Positions 41,974-52,236 of a stretch of 64,000 nt of DNA are shown piece by piece. A model generated the notes under the pieces. It did no database searches, had not been told where the DNA came from, and worked only from the letters and a program-made list of their open reading frames with translations. The position numbers and the translations under genes were made by a program. This DNA is from an uncultured Pedosphaera sp. (GTDB lineage Bacteria > Verrucomicrobiota > Verrucomicrobiia > Limisphaerales > Pedosphaeraceae). The number at the start of each line of letters is the position of its first letter. Position 1 is the stretch's first letter. The DNA lies in the NCBI GenBank assembly GCA_903918755.1, contig CAIXFN010000075.1:1-64000 (forward strand). Reading direction: 5' to 3'.

Positions 41974-42936
41974 CTACCGCTGATACTTGAACGTCGGTTT
42001 GGTCATCGTCGAAGCATAGAAAATATTCGCGTCGGGATCCCAGGCGTAATTGGGCCCGATTCGGCCAATCCCAAATCCGGCCGGCAGCGGCGCGGCCAAT
42101 TGCCAGGTCTGACCGCCATCTTTGCTCTCCTGAAAGCCACTCTTGCCCACCACCACCAAGTGCTGTTCATCTCGACCGAAATAAGGTCCGAAACTCGCGG
42201 CCACGGGAGCGCCCAAATCCACCCAGGTTAAACCGCGGTCGGCGCTCTGGAGAATCCCTTTGCCGGTCGCCCAATAGCCTTTACCCCGGAAGACCGTGGG
42301 CACGGCCGCGCTCGGGGTGTTGCTGCTGACCAATGTCCAGTTCTTGCCGGCGTCGGTGCTGCGGAAGATCCCCGGTTCTGCGGCCCGCGTCGCCACAAAC
42401 GTGGACTGATCGAACACGCCACACCCACTGAATCCCTTCGTGAGGTCTTGCCACGTCAGACCGCCATCCGCGCTGGTGGTCAGCAGCCCGCCGCTCTCGT
42501 GGCGGATGGCCAGCAATCGTTTCCCAGTGTCCGCCCAATCCACACTGCCAAAATCCAAGTGACTCGTGCCGGATTTGCTCCAACTGCCGCCGCCATCGGT
42601 AGTCAGGGCGCTGCTTCCATAAATCATGAAGCAAAACAATCGGCGCCCTGCCGGATCCGCCTGCAAGGCCCATCCGGTTTCGCAGCGACCGCCTATGTTC
42701 TCCTGGTCCCCCCGGGCGAAGGTGGCGCCATGATCCAGACTCCGCCACAGGCCCAGATCATTCACCACCATGAACACCGCTCCCGAGGCGCGATCCACCA
42801 CCACCCCCGCAGTGGGCCCCGCGTAACCCGGCTTCAAAGACGCCGTCACCGCATCGGAGATATTCACCCATTCCCCAGCGGACGCCGAAAGGGCGAAAGT
42901 CAGACTGAGCAGCAGGCCGAATATTTGGTTCTTCAT
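41974..42936 (-). CDS. Secreted BNR/sialidase-like beta-propeller protein
   Basis: 320 residues from the ATG that begins a signal peptide (MKNQIFGLLLSLTFALSASAG). Several Asp-box/BNR blades are visible: WRSLDHGATF, LTTDGGGSWSK, TTSADGGLTWQD, FRSTDAGKNWTL, LQSADRGLTWVD and QESKDGGQTWQL. These build a sialidase- or YCF48-like propeller. No Arg-triad or catalytic Tyr/Glu set typical of true sialidases is apparent, so binding or a different glycosidase function is likely. It sits next to, and divergent from, the DUF4838 module. Confidence 0.85.
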   Translation of the reverse strand: MKNQIFGLLLSLTFALSASAGEWVNISDAVTASLKPGYAGPTAGVVVDRASGAVFMVVNDLGLWRSLDHGATFARGDQENIGGRCETGWALQADPAGRRLFCFMIYGSSALTTDGGGSWSKSGTSHLDFGSVDWADTGKRLLAIRHESGGLLTTSADGGLTWQDLTKGFSGCGVFDQSTFVATRAAEPGIFRSTDAGKNWTLVSSNTPSAAVPTVFRGKGYWATGKGILQSADRGLTWVDLGAPVAASFGPYFGRDEQHLVVVGKSGFQESKDGGQTWQLAAPLPAGFGIGRIGPNYAWDPDANIFYASTMTKPTFKYQR

Positions 42937-43137
42937 AGCGGGAATTTCGCCCAGTAATCCATAACCCCGATCCCGGTGCAAGCACACATCACTTGCCCCT
43001 ATCCTTTCCTGCTTGGGCTCTTTGCCTCCTCGCCGCCAGCCCCCTCTCCGAATCCATTTCCAATCCATTCCCAATCCTGTCAAAAAATTTCCCCTCCCCA
43101 GATCATTCCTGAGCTTGCGGTTTCAATTTCCCCCCGC

Positions 43138-43167
43138 CATCCCATTTTGCCACATCCCATTTTGCCA
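43138..43167 (+). repeat. Tandem 15-bp direct repeat (2 copies)
   Basis: CATCCCATTTTGCCA occurs twice without spacer, about 48 bases upstream of the DUF4838 gene start, in a C-rich leader that also repeats TCCATTTCCAAT/TCCATTCCCAAT-like words. It could be a regulator site pair or simple slippage. Confidence 0.5.
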
Positions 43168-43214
43168 CTTGGCCTTTCCCGCCCATCCCCATAAAATAAG
43201 GCCGCTCTCGACTT

Positions 43215-45107
43215 ATGAAATTCGTACCATTCCACCACCGGTTTTGCCACCACGGATCACTTGCCTTTTCCCTGCGGGCTCAAGCCTGTCTCCTGATTCT
43301 CCTGCTGGCCATCCTCCCATCCACCACACCCGCTGAAGTGCTGATCGCCGAAAAGGGCCAGGCCCGAACCACCCTCATTCTGCAACCCGGCGCGACGATT
43401 GCGGAAATCGAGGCTGCCCGGGAACTCGCGCAAACTTTAACCCTGATCACGGGTGCGGAATTCCCCCTCAGCACCAATGCCGACACCGCGCCGGAATCCG
43501 CCATTCTGATTGGTCCGGGACCGTTGGCGGAAAAGTATTTTCCCGGAATCGTCTGGAAAAAATTGGGCGACGAGGAAGCCCTGCGCCGCACCGCTGGCGG
43601 ACGCCTTCTCCTGGCCGGGGGACGCCCCCGCGGCACCCGTTATGCGGTCAATCGCTTCCTCGAGGAACAAGGTGCCGTCCGCCGCTGGACGCCTTGGGCC
43701 GCCACCGTCCCCAAGAATCCCGATTTGCGGGTGCCGGACTTGAACCGCCAGGAAAAACCGGCGTTTGAATACCGGGAACCCTTCTGGTTCTCCGCGTTCG
43801 ACGGTGACTGGGCCGCGCGGAATTATTACAACGGGAACAGCGCCCGCGTCACGCCCGCCCAGGGTGGCAAGGTCAGTTACCAGGGTTTTGTTCATACGTT
43901 TTATCCGCTCGTCCCCCCGGAGACCTATTTCAAGGACCATCCCGAATGGTACAGCCAGGTGAAAGGCAAGCGCACCAAAGACCGGGCGCAACTTTGCCTC
44001 ACCAATCCGCAACTCCGTGATTTCGTGGTGGACCGGGTCCGCGCCTGGCTTAAGGAATCGCCCGAGGCCAGCATCATTTCCATTTCCCAAAACGACTGGC
44101 AGGGCGCTTGTGAGTGTCGCGATTGCCAGATGCTGGATGATGCCGAGGGCAGTCACGCAGGCACGATGATCACCTTTGTCAATTACGTGGCGGAAAAGCT
44201 GGAACCGGAATTTCCTTTTGTGGCGTTTGACACCCTGGCCTACCAGTACACCCGCCACCCGCCCAAAACCGTTCGCCCCCGCTCGAACGTAATCGTGCGC
44301 CTGTGCTCCATCGAATGCAATTTCAGCGTGCCGCTGGACTATCCCGAGAACGCCAAGTTCGGTCAGGACCTGCTGGATTGGTCCCACATCTGCCGCCGCC
44401 TTTATATTTGGGATTACGTCACGGATTTCTCCCACTTCGTGCAACCGCACCCGAACTGGTTCGTGCTCGGCCAGAACCTCCGCTTCTTCGCCGCCCACAA
44501 TGTGCGCGGCGTCTTTGAGGAAGGCGCGTTCCCGTCCAACGGCGCGGAGATGGCGGAACTGCGGGCCTGGGTGCTGGCACACCTTTTGTGGAATCCCCAG
44601 CAGGACGACAAGGCGTTGATCCAGGAATTCCTCGACGGCTATTACGGTCCCGCCGCAGGCAAAATCATCGCGCAGTATATGAAGGACCTGAGCCTCGTGT
44701 CCCGCGGTCACAACCTGACCTGCTTTGGCGGCACCGACGCCCCGTTCCTCAAATTCACCCCGCTGAGCCACGCGGAGCAGCTCTGGCAGGCGGCGGAGGC
44801 TGCCGTAAAGGATGATCCCGAGAAACTCTGGCGCGTTCGTCAGGCGCACCTGCCCGTTCAATATGTCTGGCTGGCGCGCTGGACCAAATTGCAGCAGGAA
44901 GCCAAGGAAGCGGGCGTGGCCTGGCCCCTGCCCGCTTCCCGCAAAGCGGTGGCGGATGCCTGGCTGGCCACGGCAACCGGCCCCGGGCCGGTCGGTTGGT
45001 CCAAGATGACGACGCTGCGCGAGGCGGGTCTGACGCCCGAGGCGTTCGTGGCCCAGTTCGCGGTGGATCCCCCGGTCGCTGCAGCCACCCCGGCGGACAA
45101 AAAATAA
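43215..45107 (+). CDS. DUF4838 domain-containing secreted protein
   Basis: 630 residues with an N-terminal signal/anchor (about 20-40, RAQACLLILLLAILPSTTP). Residues about 50-180 resemble the alpha-glucuronidase-type N-domain (AARELAQTLTLITG, AILIGPGP). The core shows the DUF4838 hallmarks: YFKDHPEWYSQVKGKR, LCLTNPQLRDFV and SISQNDWQGACECRDCQ, with two Cys pairs, then RRLYIWDYVTDFSHFVQPHPNW. DUF4838 proteins are putative glycoside hydrolases in PVC and Bacteroidota genomes with no proven substrate known to me. It leads a plus-strand run with 7 bases to the Tat protein gene. Confidence 0.85.
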   Translation: MKFVPFHHRFCHHGSLAFSLRAQACLLILLLAILPSTTPAEVLIAEKGQARTTLILQPGATIAEIEAARELAQTLTLITGAEFPLSTNADTAPESAILIGPGPLAEKYFPGIVWKKLGDEEALRRTAGGRLLLAGGRPRGTRYAVNRFLEEQGAVRRWTPWAATVPKNPDLRVPDLNRQEKPAFEYREPFWFSAFDGDWAARNYYNGNSARVTPAQGGKVSYQGFVHTFYPLVPPETYFKDHPEWYSQVKGKRTKDRAQLCLTNPQLRDFVVDRVRAWLKESPEASIISISQNDWQGACECRDCQMLDDAEGSHAGTMITFVNYVAEKLEPEFPFVAFDTLAYQYTRHPPKTVRPRSNVIVRLCSIECNFSVPLDYPENAKFGQDLLDWSHICRRLYIWDYVTDFSHFVQPHPNWFVLGQNLRFFAAHNVRGVFEEGAFPSNGAEMAELRAWVLAHLLWNPQQDDKALIQEFLDGYYGPAAGKIIAQYMKDLSLVSRGHNLTCFGGTDAPFLKFTPLSHAEQLWQAAEAAVKDDPEKLWRVRQAHLPVQYVWLARWTKLQQEAKEAGVAWPLPASRKAVADAWLATATGPGPVGWSKMTTLREAGLTPEAFVAQFAVDPPVAAATPADKK

Positions 45108-45114
45108 GGAAACC

Positions 45115-46473
45115 ATGCGCGCGGACCCAAATTTCGGAAGGCGGGAATTCCTCCGTCGCAGCGGGCAAATCGCCGGCGGCGCGTTGCTGGCGAGCACCCT
45201 GCCCGCGGCGGCCTTCGCGGCCAACCCACCGCGACGCCTGCGCGTGGCCGCCATCATCACCACGTTTTTCTATCACAGCCACGCCCATGTGCTGTTGGAG
45301 AATTTTGTCGCTCCGTATTTGTTCAACGGAAAGTGGATCGATCCCGGCATGGACGTGGTGAGCCTGTATGTGGACCAATTCGGCGAAGACGACCTGGCTC
45401 GCACGTTTGCCGCCCGGCACAACCTACCCATCCACCCAACCATCAGCGCGGCGCTCGGGTGCGGCGGCCCCGGGTTGGCGGTGGACGCCGTGCTATCCAT
45501 TGGCGAACACGGCAAATACCCGGTCAACGAAAAAGGCCAGACGGAATACCCCCGCAAACGGTTCTTCGACGAGATCGTCGCCGTCTTCCGCCAGGCCGGC
45601 CGCGTCGTCCCGGTTTTCAATGACAAGCACCTTTCCTACCGCTGGGATTGGGCCAAGGCGATGTATGACACCGCCCGGGAACTGCGCATTCCCCTCATGG
45701 CCGGCAGCTCGGTGCCGCTCGCCCAACGCCGGCCGCCCCTGGAGTTGCCGGCGCGCGCCCGAATCACCGCGGCGGTGGCGCTGCACGGTGGCGAAGTGGA
45801 GAGCTATGACTTTCACGGGCTGGAAGTTCTGCAATCGATGATCGAATCACGGCGCGGCGGGGAAACCGGGGTCGTGAAGGTCCAATTTCTCCAAGGCCCC
45901 GCGCTCTGGCAGGCGGCCGCTGATGGCCTCTGGTCCCCGCCCCTGGCCCAGGCCGCACTGGACGCCGAGCCCGATTCCGGCCGCCCCCCGGCGCGGGAAT
46001 TGATCCGGCCACCCCGGCCTGGCGAATCCGGCACTCCCTTCGTTACCCATGGCATTCTGCTACATTACCGGGATGGCCTGCGGGCCATAGTCCTGGCGGT
46101 GGCTTCCGGTGGTGGCATCCACTGGCATTTCGCTGCCCAATTGGCGGGCGAAGCCGCACCCCGCGCCACGAGTTTTTATGTGGGGCCATGGAACAACCGC
46201 AATCTGTTCAAAGCCCTGGCCCACGCCATCCAATTACACTTACGCGAAGGCAGGGCGCCCTATCCGGTTGAGCGCACCTTGCTCGCCACAGGCATCCTGG
46301 ACGCGGAAATGGAATCCCGCTTCCATGGTGGTCATTCGGTGGACACCCCGCAGCTTGCGCTTTCTTACCGGGCGCGCGACTGGCGTCGCGTGCGGGAAAT
46401 GGGCGCCACCTGGAAAATCCTGCAACCCGATGTGATCGAGCCGAAAGGAATTGAATTATGGAAACAACCTTGA
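45115..46473 (+). CDS. Tat-exported protein of unknown function
   Basis: 452 residues with a twin-arginine signal (RREFLRR at 9-15, then hydrophobic GGALLASTLPAAAFA). The body begins with an oxidoreductase-like strand (RLRVAAIITTFFYHSHAHVLL) and includes YLFNGKWIDPGMDVVSLYVD, HLSYRWDWAKAMYD and a C-terminal RFHGGHSVDTPQL. I do not recognise a named domain; similar unannotated proteins occur in planctomycetes and Verrucomicrobiota. Tat export suggests a folded or cofactor-bearing protein. It overlaps the creatininase gene by 16 bases, so function is probably shared with that enzyme and DUF4838. Confidence 0.65.
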   Translation: MRADPNFGRREFLRRSGQIAGGALLASTLPAAAFAANPPRRLRVAAIITTFFYHSHAHVLLENFVAPYLFNGKWIDPGMDVVSLYVDQFGEDDLARTFAARHNLPIHPTISAALGCGGPGLAVDAVLSIGEHGKYPVNEKGQTEYPRKRFFDEIVAVFRQAGRVVPVFNDKHLSYRWDWAKAMYDTARELRIPLMAGSSVPLAQRRPPLELPARARITAAVALHGGEVESYDFHGLEVLQSMIESRRGGETGVVKVQFLQGPALWQAAADGLWSPPLAQAALDAEPDSGRPPARELIRPPRPGESGTPFVTHGILLHYRDGLRAIVLAVASGGGIHWHFAAQLAGEAAPRATSFYVGPWNNRNLFKALAHAIQLHLREGRAPYPVERTLLATGILDAEMESRFHGGHSVDTPQLALSYRARDWRRVREMGATWKILQPDVIEPKGIELWKQP

Positions 46474-47198
46474 GCGCGCCGGAAATCCGGCTCGGCCGGC
46501 TCACGCGCCGCGAATTCCGGGAACGCCTGCGCGCGGGCGAACTCAAGGCCTGCATCCTCCCCCTCGCGGCCATCGAACAGCACCTGGAACATATGGCCAT
46601 GGAACACGACTGGCGCAGCGTCCAACACGTCGCCCTCGCGGTGGCGGAACGGCTCCGTCCGCAAGTCCTCGTGGCGGAAGGCCTGCTGGCCGGCATCAGC
46701 GAGCATCACATGCGGCATCCCGGTACCCTGTCCCTGCGACCCGGCACGTTCCTCGCCGTGCTTTCTGATCTACTCGAAAGCCTCGTGCGCGCCGGATTCC
46801 AAAACATCCTCGTGCTCAATGGTCACGGCGGCAACACCGCCCCCATCCGGGGCACGTGGGAGCAATTCCAGCGACTGAACCAGGTGAATCTCCATTTCCT
46901 CTCTTATTGGGATGTCCTGACGGAAACCGACGCCCAGGAGTTGCTCCGGAGCGGGCATCGCCTTCCGGAGGACCTGCCGGGCCACGCCCAGGAATTCGAA
47001 ACCGCCATCGGGCTCGCGGCGTTTCCTGAAAACGTGCGCACCACGATGTGGATCGACCAGCCCGATCCAACACCGTCCCTCGCCACCGCCGCCACCGGCG
47101 AGGAACTCCTGCGCCGGATCGTGGGTCGGTTGACCATTTACGTTCAGGAAATGATCGCCGGAAAAAAGGTCTCCTCAGTCCCGCCCTACTTTCCCTGA
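46458..47198 (+). CDS. Creatininase-family amidohydrolase
   Basis: 246 residues. Metal ligands of the creatininase/FAPy-deformylase fold are in place: Glu40 and His42 in LAAIEQHLE, Asp51 in MEHDWRS, His123 in LNGHGGNTAPI and Glu179 in GHAQEFETAI. Canonical members read EQHGPHLP; here it is EQHLEHMA, so the substrate pocket differs from creatininase. Family members hydrolyse cyclic amides or lactams. Its start overlaps the Tat gene, indicating coupled translation, and its end overlaps the convergent MFS gene by 13 bases. No signal peptide: cytoplasmic. Confidence 0.85.
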   Translation: METTLSAPEIRLGRLTRREFRERLRAGELKACILPLAAIEQHLEHMAMEHDWRSVQHVALAVAERLRPQVLVAEGLLAGISEHHMRHPGTLSLRPGTFLAVLSDLLESLVRAGFQNILVLNGHGGNTAPIRGTWEQFQRLNQVNLHFLSYWDVLTETDAQELLRSGHRLPEDLPGHAQEFETAIGLAAFPENVRTTMWIDQPDPTPSLATAATGEELLRRIVGRLTIYVQEMIAGKKVSSVPPYFP

Positions 47199-48427
47199 GC
47201 CGCCGGCCACGCCAGCGGCTCAATCCGCGGCACGAGCGTCAACAGACACACCGCCCCCAGCACCAAAAAGGCGCTGGCCACTCCGAACGCCAGAAAGAAC
47301 GAACCCGTCCGCTCCACGATCAGCCCCGCGACGATCGGCGACGCCACGCCCCCCAGATTCCCAATAAAGTTTTGGATCCCTGTCCACCGCCCGGCCGCCA
47401 ACGGACCGGATAAGGTCTGCGTGATCGCCCAGATGTTGGACGTCAACAACCCCAGCGACATGGTCGCCGCAATCAGGAATCCCAAAGCCCAGGCTGGATC
47501 CGTCACCCACGCCGCCGGCAGCATTAATGCCGCGCAAAGTAGCAGGCCCGCCAGTGCAAAAGACTTCCGCACCACCGTCGCGGTATGGCCCCGGGCGATC
47601 AATTGATCCGACACCCACCCACCCGCTAACGACGTGGCCGCCATACCCAGAAAAGGCAGCGATCCATACCGGGCCATTTGTTCCAGCGAATAATGGCGCT
47701 CCTTGACGAGGTACGAAGGCAGCCAGGTCAGCAGAAACACCCATGCATAGCCGAGCGCAAACATCCCCAACGAAGTCCCCCAAACTTCCCGCCGTCCCAG
47801 CAAACTCAGCATCCCCGGCCCCCTCGCCCCCGCCGACGACGATTCCCCGCGCGACCGATCCGTGGGCGCCAACCAGATCCAGGGCGCCAACCACAGCAAA
47901 CTTCCCAGCCCCACCCCAATGAACAGCGCCCGCCAGCCATAGGTTTTCACGAACAACCCGCCCAGCAACGTGCTCAAAAACGGTCCCAACTTCGTCCCCA
48001 TATCCACCAGCGCATTGGGCAGCCCCCGCTGATCCGCTGCAAACAGCCGGACCACGATCTTCGATACCGAAGGCAAAAACACACTCTCCCCCACCCCCAA
48101 CACCAGCCGCGCTGCAAACAACCACGCAAAACTGGAAGCCAACCCCGTCGCCGCCATCGCCAGCGACCACACCAGAAATCCGGCCAGGTACACCCATTTC
48201 ACTTCGAATCGGTCCACCAGCCATCCCACGACCAGTTGCATGACCGTGTAACTCCAGAAAAACGCCGACAACAAATACCCCAACTGTCCCGGCGACAAAT
48301 GAAACTCCGCCGACAACACCGGCGCCGCCACCGAAAGACTCCCCCGGTCGATGTAGTTGATCCCCACCGACAGCAGCAACAAAACAACCACCACCCAGCG
48401 GTTGGAATTTGGTGGTGGAGGGTTCAT
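47186..48427 (-). CDS. MFS transporter, ACS family
   Basis: 413 residues from the ATG beginning MNPPPPNSNRW, with 12 predicted helices. The INYIDRGSLSVAAPVL opening and GVGESVFLPSVSKIV segment mark the anion:cation symporter subfamily (GudP/ExuT-like), importers of sugar acids or other organic anions. It converges on the creatininase gene with overlapping 3' ends, placing an importer beside the DUF4838/Tat/creatininase set. Confidence 0.85.
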   Translation of the reverse strand: MNPPPPNSNRWVVVVLLLLSVGINYIDRGSLSVAAPVLSAEFHLSPGQLGYLLSAFFWSYTVMQLVVGWLVDRFEVKWVYLAGFLVWSLAMAATGLASSFAWLFAARLVLGVGESVFLPSVSKIVVRLFAADQRGLPNALVDMGTKLGPFLSTLLGGLFVKTYGWRALFIGVGLGSLLWLAPWIWLAPTDRSRGESSSAGARGPGMLSLLGRREVWGTSLGMFALGYAWVFLLTWLPSYLVKERHYSLEQMARYGSLPFLGMAATSLAGGWVSDQLIARGHTATVVRKSFALAGLLLCAALMLPAAWVTDPAWALGFLIAATMSLGLLTSNIWAITQTLSGPLAAGRWTGIQNFIGNLGGVASPIVAGLIVERTGSFFLAFGVASAFLVLGAVCLLTLVPRIEPLAWPAAQGK

Positions 48428-48599
48428 GGATTCGAGATCGAACGAGCAAGAGTTTGCCATGCGTCGATGCGGTGAGGCAAGCCGCAGATTATTCGCCGAC
48501 GTTCGTGTTCCAGCGCCTAATTTTGGTCTCCCATCCTATTGAGGACATAACGCGAGACGCACAGAGACGGCCGGCAGTACTCCGAGTGCCGTTACTTTC

Positions 48600-49077: not shown

Positions 49078-52000
49078 TCACAACTCCGAATCCAGACTTT
49101 CCGGATCCACCCAGAACTCGTCTTTGGGATTCAACTCCACATTGGGCAGCGGCTCGAACTTCGATTCATCGAAGGGCGCAAGTTGCGGTTCGGGCGCGCC
49201 GAGCTCCTGGAGATGTTTACGGGCGTTGGTTAGGCCAAAGTGATAGGCGTAGTACAGTTTGCCATCGGCGGAGATACCATCACACCAGGCCAGCGCATAG
49301 GCTTTCGCGGCGGCGGCAATGGCGGCATACCGATTGCCCTGGTCGCGCTCAATTTGAGCGAGGACGTTTAGGGCGTCAGCATAGAAGAGCGGATACGGGC
49401 CGGGCTCGGCGGTATCCCAGAACTGGTCGAGGAGTTCGCGGGCGATGGCTGATTCGTTCTTGCGCCGGTGGAGTTCAGCGAGGGAGGTGAGCGTGGGGAG
49501 TTCCTCTTGGATGCGACTGACCGCGCGGGCGCGAGTGAGCGCGTGCTGGAGGCGTTCGGCAGCGGTATCGAAGTCGTTCAGGCCGAGAGAAGCGGTGCCG
49601 AGAAGACGCGCGGCGCGGATGAAGTCGGCTTCCAAGCGTTGAACTTTCGCAAGTTCCCAAGCGCGCTGGGCGAGAGCAAGCGCCTGGTTGGGATCGCCAA
49701 TCCGAAGGAGACGATCGGCAAGGTGAGCATTCACGAGGCCTTCAACTTGCGGATGGTTCCCACAGATCCAGGCATTCAGTGACCGTCTGAGGGCGATTTC
49801 GGATTCGGCGCGAACGCCACAGAGAGCCTGATTAAGTCCCCGCTCATATTCTCCCACTCCTTCCGAATAACGATCCTGATGGTTGCGGCCCAACTGAATC
49901 GCGCGCCCGCTGGCTGAATCGGCCTCACGCAAAGCCCCAGAAAGCCGCAGGGAGTCGGAAAGATTGCACAATCCAACAGCGGTGTTCGTCGGTTCATTCC
50001 CGCGCTCTAGAATTTCGATGGCACGTCGGAGAAGAGGGACGGCTCGACCTGGCTCACCGCGCATGTGGTAAGCCGCAGCCAGCGAGTTGAGAGCGTAACT
50101 CTGATCTCGAGCGGTTTGCAGACGAGGCAGTTTCTCGACACCATTGGGAAAAAGCCGCTCCAATAGTTGGGCGCGCTGACGACTGGCGCTAAGGCGCCAG
50201 AGGGTGGCGTCACTCAAGTAGTCGCGGAAAAGAAGGAATGCATCCTGATGGCGATCGAGGCCGATAAGGGCTTCGTAAAGCTCAATTGCGGGCGTGAGGT
50301 CTTCGAGGCTTTCGACCTTCAAATAGTGAGGTGGCCGGGCCACAGCGTCGAAGTAGGTATGCAGCTCGGCATAAATAACCTTACGGGCTTGGCCGTCGAG
50401 CGCCTGCCACACGACGCCGCGCACGATGGGATGAAGGTCGTAGCGATTGGCTTTCTTGTCCCAGCCCACCAGCCCGCGATCTTCGAGTTCGGTGAGAATC
50501 AGGTCGAGAGCCTGGTCCGTGACGCAGGGCTTGGGCGCAGCGACTTCACTTGAAGCAGCCGGTGTGAGGAGGCTCTCATCTCCTGCAGGCTGAGAGATTT
50601 GAGCCTCAAGTCGGTTGCTAACAACAAGCAACGCGCGCAGAGTCTCCCACGTCGCGGGCATACAGAAGGCAGAAATCGTATGGAGGACTTTACGGTGTCC
50701 GAGCTCGAGACCACGAAGGGCATATTCGAGGACGTGTGTCTTCGCATTTTTCAAGTCAAATTGTCCGGGATTGAAATCGGGATTGTCTGCAATCCATTTA
50801 TCAAAATTTCCGGGACCCGGCTTGTACTCAGCGATTTCGCCGGCCAAGGCGCGAATCAGGAGCGGGTAGTTGCCGAAGGCATTAAACTGCTTTAGTAGCT
50901 GTTCGCGCGAACCGGAGACACCAAATTCCCTCCAAAGATTGATGGCATCATCGTCCTTCATTCCATTGAGCTTCAAGGGATAGCAACCGCGCATTGGTTG
51001 GGCCGTCGGGGTCTCAAGTTCTGCCGGGCAGAGCCGAGTAGTGATGAGAATCCGCGATGAACGGACTGTCGCCAGTCGGCGAATAAACCTTCCTGCGCTT
51101 GCATCCATGCACTGGCGAAGGCGATGTTTTTGCAGATATGTCTCGCGGATGTTTTCTGGAATGCCGGCGAACATTCTTTCACCATGGGCGGTTTCTTTGT
51201 CGAAATCGTCATCCAGCATCTGCGCGGCATCCATGCGCACGTACGCGAGGAGGATGCGCTCCATCCCGTCGAGTACGAGCAGGAACGGGTGCTGGTCGAA
51301 GCTGCGCCAGAGTTGTTCTTCGCGGTCCGGCGCTTTCAACTCGCGCACCACTTTCTCTGATTGCCCTGAGACGTAGGCGAGGGCACGAATGATGAAGTTT
51401 TCCCAGCGCGCGTCGCTTTCGTAAAAACTCCACCACAGGCGTCCGTCGAGTTTGGGCAGTTCGTTGGGCGCGATGTCGTTGAACCATTTCCAGGTGAGCG
51501 CACTCTTCCCCAGCCCGCCAATGGCCTCGACGGTGATGATGCGCGTGCCGGCGGGCACCACCCGGTTCGTCGTCACCCAATCAGTGAGAAGATTCAACTC
51601 ATCCTGGCGCCCCACAACGTCCTTGGTCTGGAGCAGCGAGTACGGATGAGCGATGTAGGCTTCGGGCGGCTTTGGGATGAGGTTGGGCGGGTGGAAGTCG
51701 GGCGTAGCCATTTCGCCGGACGATCCTTGTTCGCGTTTTTTGAGGTCGGAGAGGGCGTGAACGACTTCGGCGCGTAAATCGTGTGTCGATTTGAATTCGC
51801 TGCGTCCGCGTCCTTTGCTGGCTCGGGCTTTCAACTCGGCGAGTTTCTTTTGCGCGTCTTTGTCAGTCTCGACCATCTCAATGGTCAGCGGGTGCTCAGT
51901 ATGAATGAGGAAAACAAGAATCGGAATCTTCCGCTCTACGGCACGATTGAACTCCATCTCGGTAATGGAAATCTTCCCAGGATTGTCGAATTCCGGCACC

Positions 52001-52236
52001 CAGCCGTAACGCCACGCGTAAATACCGATGTAGATGTCCGCCTTATCTACCATCTCCAGCGAGACCTTGATGCCGGAAGCATCTCGCGCGGGCAAATGCT
52101 CCATGGCAATGGGGAAAACGTCTTGGCGCAGACAGGCTTCGACGACTTCTTTGCGATGCTCCGGCAGATCCACCGCCGTGCTGCTGATCATCGCCGTTAG
52201 TTGGCCGGGTCTGGAGTGAAGTGCTAAATCGGGCAT
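49078..52236 (-). CDS. DUF4062-STAND NTPase-TPR protein (NLR-like)
   Basis: 1052 residues. Residues 12-165 are a DUF4062 domain, a TIR-related effector or sensor module (MISSTAVDLPEHRKEVVEA, ADIYIGIYAWRYGWVP, SITEMEFNRAV). Residues about 205-600 are a STAND/NB-ARC NTPase: Walker A GGLGKSA with Lys244, Walker B LLVLDGME with Asp323, sensor SSRILITTR (393-401), then a winged-helix-like region. Residues about 640-1040 are TPR repeats (ALNSLAAAYHMRGEPGRAV and similar). This architecture matches bacterial NLR-like proteins, several of which are antiphage sensors. It is a lone gene bracketed by direct repeats. A defence function is inference; signalling is the alternative. Confidence 0.82.
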   Translation of the reverse strand: MPDLALHSRPGQLTAMISSTAVDLPEHRKEVVEACLRQDVFPIAMEHLPARDASGIKVSLEMVDKADIYIGIYAWRYGWVPEFDNPGKISITEMEFNRAVERKIPILVFLIHTEHPLTIEMVETDKDAQKKLAELKARASKGRGRSEFKSTHDLRAEVVHALSDLKKREQGSSGEMATPDFHPPNLIPKPPEAYIAHPYSLLQTKDVVGRQDELNLLTDWVTTNRVVPAGTRIITVEAIGGLGKSALTWKWFNDIAPNELPKLDGRLWWSFYESDARWENFIIRALAYVSGQSEKVVRELKAPDREEQLWRSFDQHPFLLVLDGMERILLAYVRMDAAQMLDDDFDKETAHGERMFAGIPENIRETYLQKHRLRQCMDASAGRFIRRLATVRSSRILITTRLCPAELETPTAQPMRGCYPLKLNGMKDDDAINLWREFGVSGSREQLLKQFNAFGNYPLLIRALAGEIAEYKPGPGNFDKWIADNPDFNPGQFDLKNAKTHVLEYALRGLELGHRKVLHTISAFCMPATWETLRALLVVSNRLEAQISQPAGDESLLTPAASSEVAAPKPCVTDQALDLILTELEDRGLVGWDKKANRYDLHPIVRGVVWQALDGQARKVIYAELHTYFDAVARPPHYLKVESLEDLTPAIELYEALIGLDRHQDAFLLFRDYLSDATLWRLSASRQRAQLLERLFPNGVEKLPRLQTARDQSYALNSLAAAYHMRGEPGRAVPLLRRAIEILERGNEPTNTAVGLCNLSDSLRLSGALREADSASGRAIQLGRNHQDRYSEGVGEYERGLNQALCGVRAESEIALRRSLNAWICGNHPQVEGLVNAHLADRLLRIGDPNQALALAQRAWELAKVQRLEADFIRAARLLGTASLGLNDFDTAAERLQHALTRARAVSRIQEELPTLTSLAELHRRKNESAIARELLDQFWDTAEPGPYPLFYADALNVLAQIERDQGNRYAAIAAAAKAYALAWCDGISADGKLYYAYHFGLTNARKHLQELGAPEPQLAPFDESKFEPLPNVELNPKDEFWVDPESLDSEL

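Follow-up and report, generated by a model that had tools for sequence, protein, structure and literature searches.

One of the questions raised by this locus is what an exported protein encoded between a glycosidase-like gene and a creatininase-family gene does, and whether the genes around it describe a catabolic route. The window, by which we mean the whole 64,000-nucleotide stretch analyzed here, had been read in an initial annotation as carrying a module of five genes: a BNR propeller, a DUF4838 protein, a Tat-exported protein, a creatininase, and an MFS importer. All five open reading frames are present in the window sequence, and the features relevant to the argument are as follows:

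41974..43083, minus strand: BNR-repeat protein (BNR, 42.8 bits), a divergent neighbor outside the conserved module
43215..45107, plus strand: DUF4838 (listed as GH163) glycosidase-like protein, 630 amino acids, with a Sec-like N-terminal signal
45108..45114, plus strand: spacer of 7 bases between the DUF4838 and Tat genes, of equal length in three genomes
45115..46473, plus strand: Tat-signal protein, 452 amino acids, with a predicted Gfo/Idh/MocA fold that lacks the dinucleotide loop (AlphaFold2, fold search, hhalign)
45259..45282, plus strand: Tat protein codons 49-56, the T-x-aromatic-x3-S-H loop in place of GxGxxG (76-sequence alignment)
45505..45507, plus strand: codon of Tat protein E131, invariant (76/76)
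45622..45630, plus strand: Tat protein codons 170-172, DKH at the place of the Gfo/Idh/MocA EKP (alignment, profile comparison)
45814..45825, plus strand: Tat protein codons 234-237, with a His and a Glu, both conserved, around the position of the fold's catalytic His
46458..46473, plus strand: overlap of 16 bases between the Tat and creatininase-family genes, containing an alternative 4-base XTGA overlap
46458..47198, plus strand: creatininase-family metal hydrolase, 246 amino acids, without an export signal
47186..48460, minus strand: convergent MFS importer of the ACS type (TIGR00893); an in-frame ATG lies at 48427 as well

The 7-base gap between the DUF4838 and Tat genes is conserved base for base in relatives. 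The 16-base overlap that had been described between the Tat and creatininase-family genes is real and equally conserved base for base, but a second candidate start, XTGA with a 4-base overlap, is conserved just as well, so the overlap may be of either 16 or 4 bases. The 3' end of the MFS gene overlaps the creatininase-family gene by 13 bases. The BNR gene most likely starts at the signal-peptide ATG at 42936 rather than at the TTG at 43083. Scans for promoters and terminators gave signal at or near chance.

The four genes other than the BNR gene show dN/dS values of 0.10-0.15, indicative of purifying selection, and protein identities of 68-78% (both relative to genome G411, with G461 used for the MFS gene); these are therefore genes under selection and not chance open reading frames. 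A Tat gene followed by a creatininase gene of the same subfamily was found in six genomes of four families (G461, G411, G581, G485, G506, and G000, which is the window's own genome), the creatininase-family protein being 75-78% identical in the five relatives. The DUF4838 gene precedes this pair only in G000, G461, and G411, which belong to two families; the gap is 7 bases in 3/3, and the orthologs in G461 and G411 are 68% identical to the window protein. The 16-base overlap is identical in G000, G461, G411, and G581, the spacing is about 20 bases in G506, and it is a few hundred bases in G485. In the tree, the cassette Tat proteins form two supported clades, one of G000, G461, G411, and G581 (100/99) and one of G485 and G506 (100/100); we use only the branch supports of this tree and set aside its label count, in which some cassette members lacked a label and one paralog had been given one wrongly. 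An MFS relative adjoins the cassette in five of the six genomes (such relatives lie at loci L052, L053, L054, and L064), and the contig of the sixth stops inside the creatininase gene. The lack of any recurrence of the DUF4838, Tat, and creatininase genes elsewhere had been named as grounds for abandoning the grouping; since the triple recurs in G461 and G411, and the Tat-creatininase pair also in G581, G485, and G506, those grounds are absent. The BNR gene had been counted as part of the set, and we rejected it as a member: in no other genome does a BNR relative stand beside the cassette.

It is formally conceivable that the neighborhood is accidental, with creatininase and DUF4838 proteins that serve other routes and whose genes came to lie beside the Tat gene in just one lineage. 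Creatininases of the cassette subfamily occur without a nearby Tat gene in at least 20 other genomes, close DUF4838 relatives are likewise found without one, and DUF4838 joins the pair in one clade only. Such an accident is nevertheless unlikely, for the link between Tat and creatininase genes survives about 25% protein divergence and spans four families, with junctions unchanged in four genomes. A Tat-family gene is also present in 28/29 genomes with a cassette-type creatininase compared with 130/293 genomes of the order overall (Fisher p 4e-10, a value inflated by relatedness), the latter count coming from a profile search with the Tat protein. We consider with high confidence that the DUF4838, Tat, and creatininase genes form a coupled, conserved operon, the full three-gene set of which is narrow in distribution. 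Within the window's own family, the Tat gene was found in one of eight sampled genomes, that of the window itself, and the cassette is therefore accessory. Near DUF4838 genes there is weak enrichment of Gfo/Idh/MocA genes (5/96 versus 15/816) and of MFS genes (4/96 versus 4/816, a figure that includes the cassettes themselves). At L135:212-4908, a DUF4838 relative is flanked by two Gfo/Idh/MocA genes on one strand.

Upstream of the module, positions 16790-40036 of the window hold a plant-sugar type cluster with FGGY kinase, glucuronoyl-esterase-like, PQQ-propeller, and MGH1/GH65/GH43-like proteins, together with a class II aldolase and a weakly matching fucose-isomerase-like protein; none of the genes of this cluster that were tested adjoins the cassette in relatives. 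On the other side, a lone minus-strand gene at 49078-52236 encodes a 1052-amino acid DUF4062 and AAA/TPR protein.

At the center of the cassette is the Tat protein. Neither Pfam nor NCBIfam provided a family for it or for 18 aligned relatives beyond Tat-signal models and scattered weak matches; PF01408 matched none of the 19 family members at E up to 1, and PF19051 did not match the Tat protein. At least 97% of 66 relatives keep the twin arginines, R9 and R10. With E values no higher than 1, TIGR01409 is matched by 7/19 members, the best value being 2.7e-4; the window protein itself is matched by no Tat-signal model. Structure prediction, which the initial annotation had suggested as a check, gave an AlphaFold2 model (pLDDT 87.2, pTM 0.86) with a Rossmann domain and an alpha/beta C-terminal domain, as in Gfo/Idh/MocA proteins. 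Its best fold match is GenD2 (Z 25.5, rmsd 4.0, 288 aligned positions, residues 38-419), followed by inositol dehydrogenases, sulfoquinovosidases, and GFOR. In hhalign, the family aligned with ordinary Tat-exported Gfo/Idh/MocA proteins of the same loci at 92.8% probability, with its DKH placed on their EKP/QKP, and RgNanOx gave a weak profile match over the same stretch. On the strength of the model, the Tat protein very probably has the Gfo/Idh/MocA fold, whose hallmark is sugar chemistry with NAD(P).

The motif GxGxx[GA] is found in the loop after strand 1 in 0/76 aligned Tat-family sequences. Most of them read T-x-[W/Y/F]-x3-S-H there, the final histidine (H56) being conserved in 74/76. 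The residues E131, K171, R246, and R387 are invariant in all 76, D170 is conserved in 75, H172 in 73, and H234 in 75; E237 is found in 70 and is Asp in the remaining six. The EKP motif itself is absent, DKH being read in 73/76 with the lysine retained in 76/76. D87, after strand 2, is commonly but not universally acidic, with His or Leu in more distant relatives; where acidic, it would fit some nucleotide binding. Judging from the alignment, the canonical dinucleotide loop has almost certainly been lost from the family, and a different conserved loop has taken its place, so that it is replaced rather than decayed. With the loop replaced and the cleft positions kept, we infer that the Tat protein is an active enzyme with a changed relation to NAD(P). 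If it were instead a noncatalytic descendant of a dehydrogenase, serving to bind sugar or as a scaffold, loss of the cofactor loop would be expected, yet E131, D170, K171, and H234, which the alignment places in the cleft, are retained in 75-76 of the 76 sequences over several phyla, which suits catalysis better and makes this explanation highly improbable.

A more serious alternative is that the protein is an ordinary oxidoreductase that is exported with tightly bound NAD(P), like glucose-fructose oxidoreductase, the cofactor being held by a different loop. The fold is common to GFOR and aldose-aldose oxidoreductase, loading of the cofactor in the cytoplasm suits Tat export, K171 and H234 are kept, and D87 is mostly acidic. 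Against this stand the complete absence of GxGxxG from the alignment, the bulky aromatic residue usually found in the replacement loop, and the His or Leu at position 87 of more distant relatives, and we regard an ordinary oxidoreductase as possible but doubtful. Because the dinucleotide loop is missing, ordinary NAD(P) redox chemistry would be less likely than either a nonredox reaction (isomerization, epimerization, elimination, or hydration) that needs no such loop or the use of a cofactor held in some other manner. Consistent replacement of the loop, with the active site positions retained, would reveal altered chemistry on the Gfo/Idh/MocA fold.

The Tat family extends well beyond the cassette. 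Relatives occur in 12/199 sampled genomes of Planctomycetota and in 11/297 genomes of the phylum of G880, the gene content of which looks, in our judgment, like that of Acidobacteriota. The metagenome-assembled genome of L017 (VFZK01000082.1), titled Acidimicrobiia, groups with the acidobacterial-looking genomes and may be wrongly labeled. Copies per genome range from one to fourteen, with 14 matches in the planctomycete G680 (the genome of L016). A 34%-identical relative, apparently without a Tat signal, follows MarR and MFS genes on the conjugative Arthrobacter plasmid AP014720.1 (L150:11401-13260). Many verrucomicrobial genomes carry tandem pairs of Tat-family genes, and shorter paralogs lie in tandem at L080, L081, L082, L083, L084, L085, L087, L088, and L089; the pairs at L080 and L081 have an amino acid permease gene and a Gfo/Idh/MocA gene nearby. 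A cluster of proteins of about 250 amino acids with no Pfam match, represented by L008:11401-12156, directly adjoins Tat-family genes of both forms and is also found at L055, L057, L080, L081, and L084. Most Tat-family genes have neither a DUF4838 nor a creatininase gene nearby, and in the planctomycete-type loci L009-L021 tblastn detected neither linked to the Tat gene. The family must therefore serve other routes too, and the cassette supplies a metabolic context in which its substrate and reaction become testable.

The partners of the Tat protein give some indication of what that context could be. The module had been called unassigned; its DUF4838 protein belongs to PF16126 (371.5 bits against a cut-off of 26.6), and proteins of this family are already listed as GH163 (PMC9870897), a GH163 enzyme being known to cut GlcNAc-containing N-glycan antennae (PMC10154615). 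No solved chain matched it in sequence. Its predicted model (pLDDT 81) is closest to GH115 (Z 16.7), GH84, and GH67 enzymes; GH163 chains are absent among the fold matches listed, which is no evidence against GH163. The predicted fold suggests a uronide or N-acetylhexosaminide substrate.

The creatininase-family protein is a clear member of PF02633 (144.2 bits against a cut-off of 31.3). Its metal site had been described as rewritten, a claim we reject: alignment with the solved creatininase 1q3k shows all five ligand positions (E, H, D, H, and E) in place, and the loop LEHMAMEHD resembles GHHMCMNVD of creatininase. The MFS carrier has TIGR00893 as its best family, but its 201.3 bits stay well under the cut-off of 395 and do not allow a substrate to be assigned; among solved structures it comes closest to the D-galactonate transporter DgoT (6e9n, E 1.8e-39).

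We propose a route in which the DUF4838 protein would cut a sugar residue, by its fold of the uronide or N-acetylhexosaminide type, from a glycan or glycoside outside the cytoplasm. The Tat protein, exported in a folded state, would modify the freed sugar at K171/H234/E131/D170. The MFS carrier would import the anionic product, to be hydrolyzed in the cytoplasm by the creatininase-family metal enzyme. The localizations follow from sequence signals, and each reaction is suggested by fold or family. An outside-in route, as initially put forward, thus fits a set of glycosidase-like, dehydrogenase-fold, importer, and hydrolase proteins, but none of our tests points specifically to an amide or lactam sugar, a reading drawn solely from the name of the creatininase family. 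A route that takes up and hydrolyzes such a sugar would be in keeping with the amide hydrolases included in PF02633, with the intact metal ligands, and with the room left for N-acetyl sugars by the GH84-like fold and the GH163 listing (PMC10154615). It is quite improbable given that the creatininase-family protein falls far short in score of every equivalog in that family, among them IolN, whose substrate is a cyclic ketone, and that the best fold matches of the DUF4838 protein are glucuronidases and that of the carrier a sugar-acid transporter. Counting against our own route, DUF4838 joins the pair in three genomes of two families only, and the whole chain of release, modification outside, anion import, and hydrolysis inside is offered tentatively. 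In our view, the Tat protein is most likely an enzyme that is exported to modify a sugar, within a catabolic route running from the outside in.

The composition had been thought to lack a described pathway, and this agrees with our search of open-licence papers, in which we found none on a DUF4838-creatininase or a Tat/Gfo-creatininase route and no description of the Tat-protein family; PHROGs and a viral fold library added nothing. The gene combination is real and conserved, undescribed within our search, and has at its core an exported branch of a known fold that carries no annotation. A broader suggestion, which we put forward with some reserve, is that a widespread, mostly exported family of the Gfo/Idh/MocA fold has swapped its NAD(P) loop for T-x-aromatic-x3-S-H and carries out non-NAD sugar chemistry outside the cytoplasm, here in an undescribed DUF4838-Tat-creatininase operon.

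Each component of the cassette can be set beside a known system. Within GH163, the DUF4838 protein shares the strong Pfam match, and its model is nearest to GH115, GH84, and GH67. The carrier has the same best family as the ACS-type MFS proteins DgoT and sialin, with DgoT as its best solved relative. With creatininase, MftE, and IolN, the cytoplasmic enzyme shares PF02633 and all metal ligands, whereas its scores of 73, 67, and 58 bits lie far under the respective NCBIfam equivalog cut-offs of 235, 172, and 245; the creatininase family of NCBIfam also takes in nonamide enzymes, 3-dehydro-scyllo-inosose hydrolase among them. The closest comparison for the Tat protein is with the Gfo/Idh/MocA enzymes (GFOR, the inositol dehydrogenases, GenD2/KanD2, and the oxidoreductive sulfoquinovosidases), with which it shares the predicted two-domain fold over residues 38-419, a lysine at the EKP place, and a conserved histidine, and, with GFOR, Tat export. 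It differs from them in the absence of GxGxxG from 76/76 sequences and in DKH for EKP, and where the ordinary Gfo/Idh/MocA proteins of the same loci read IATPDHWHA the Tat family has IGEHGxY.
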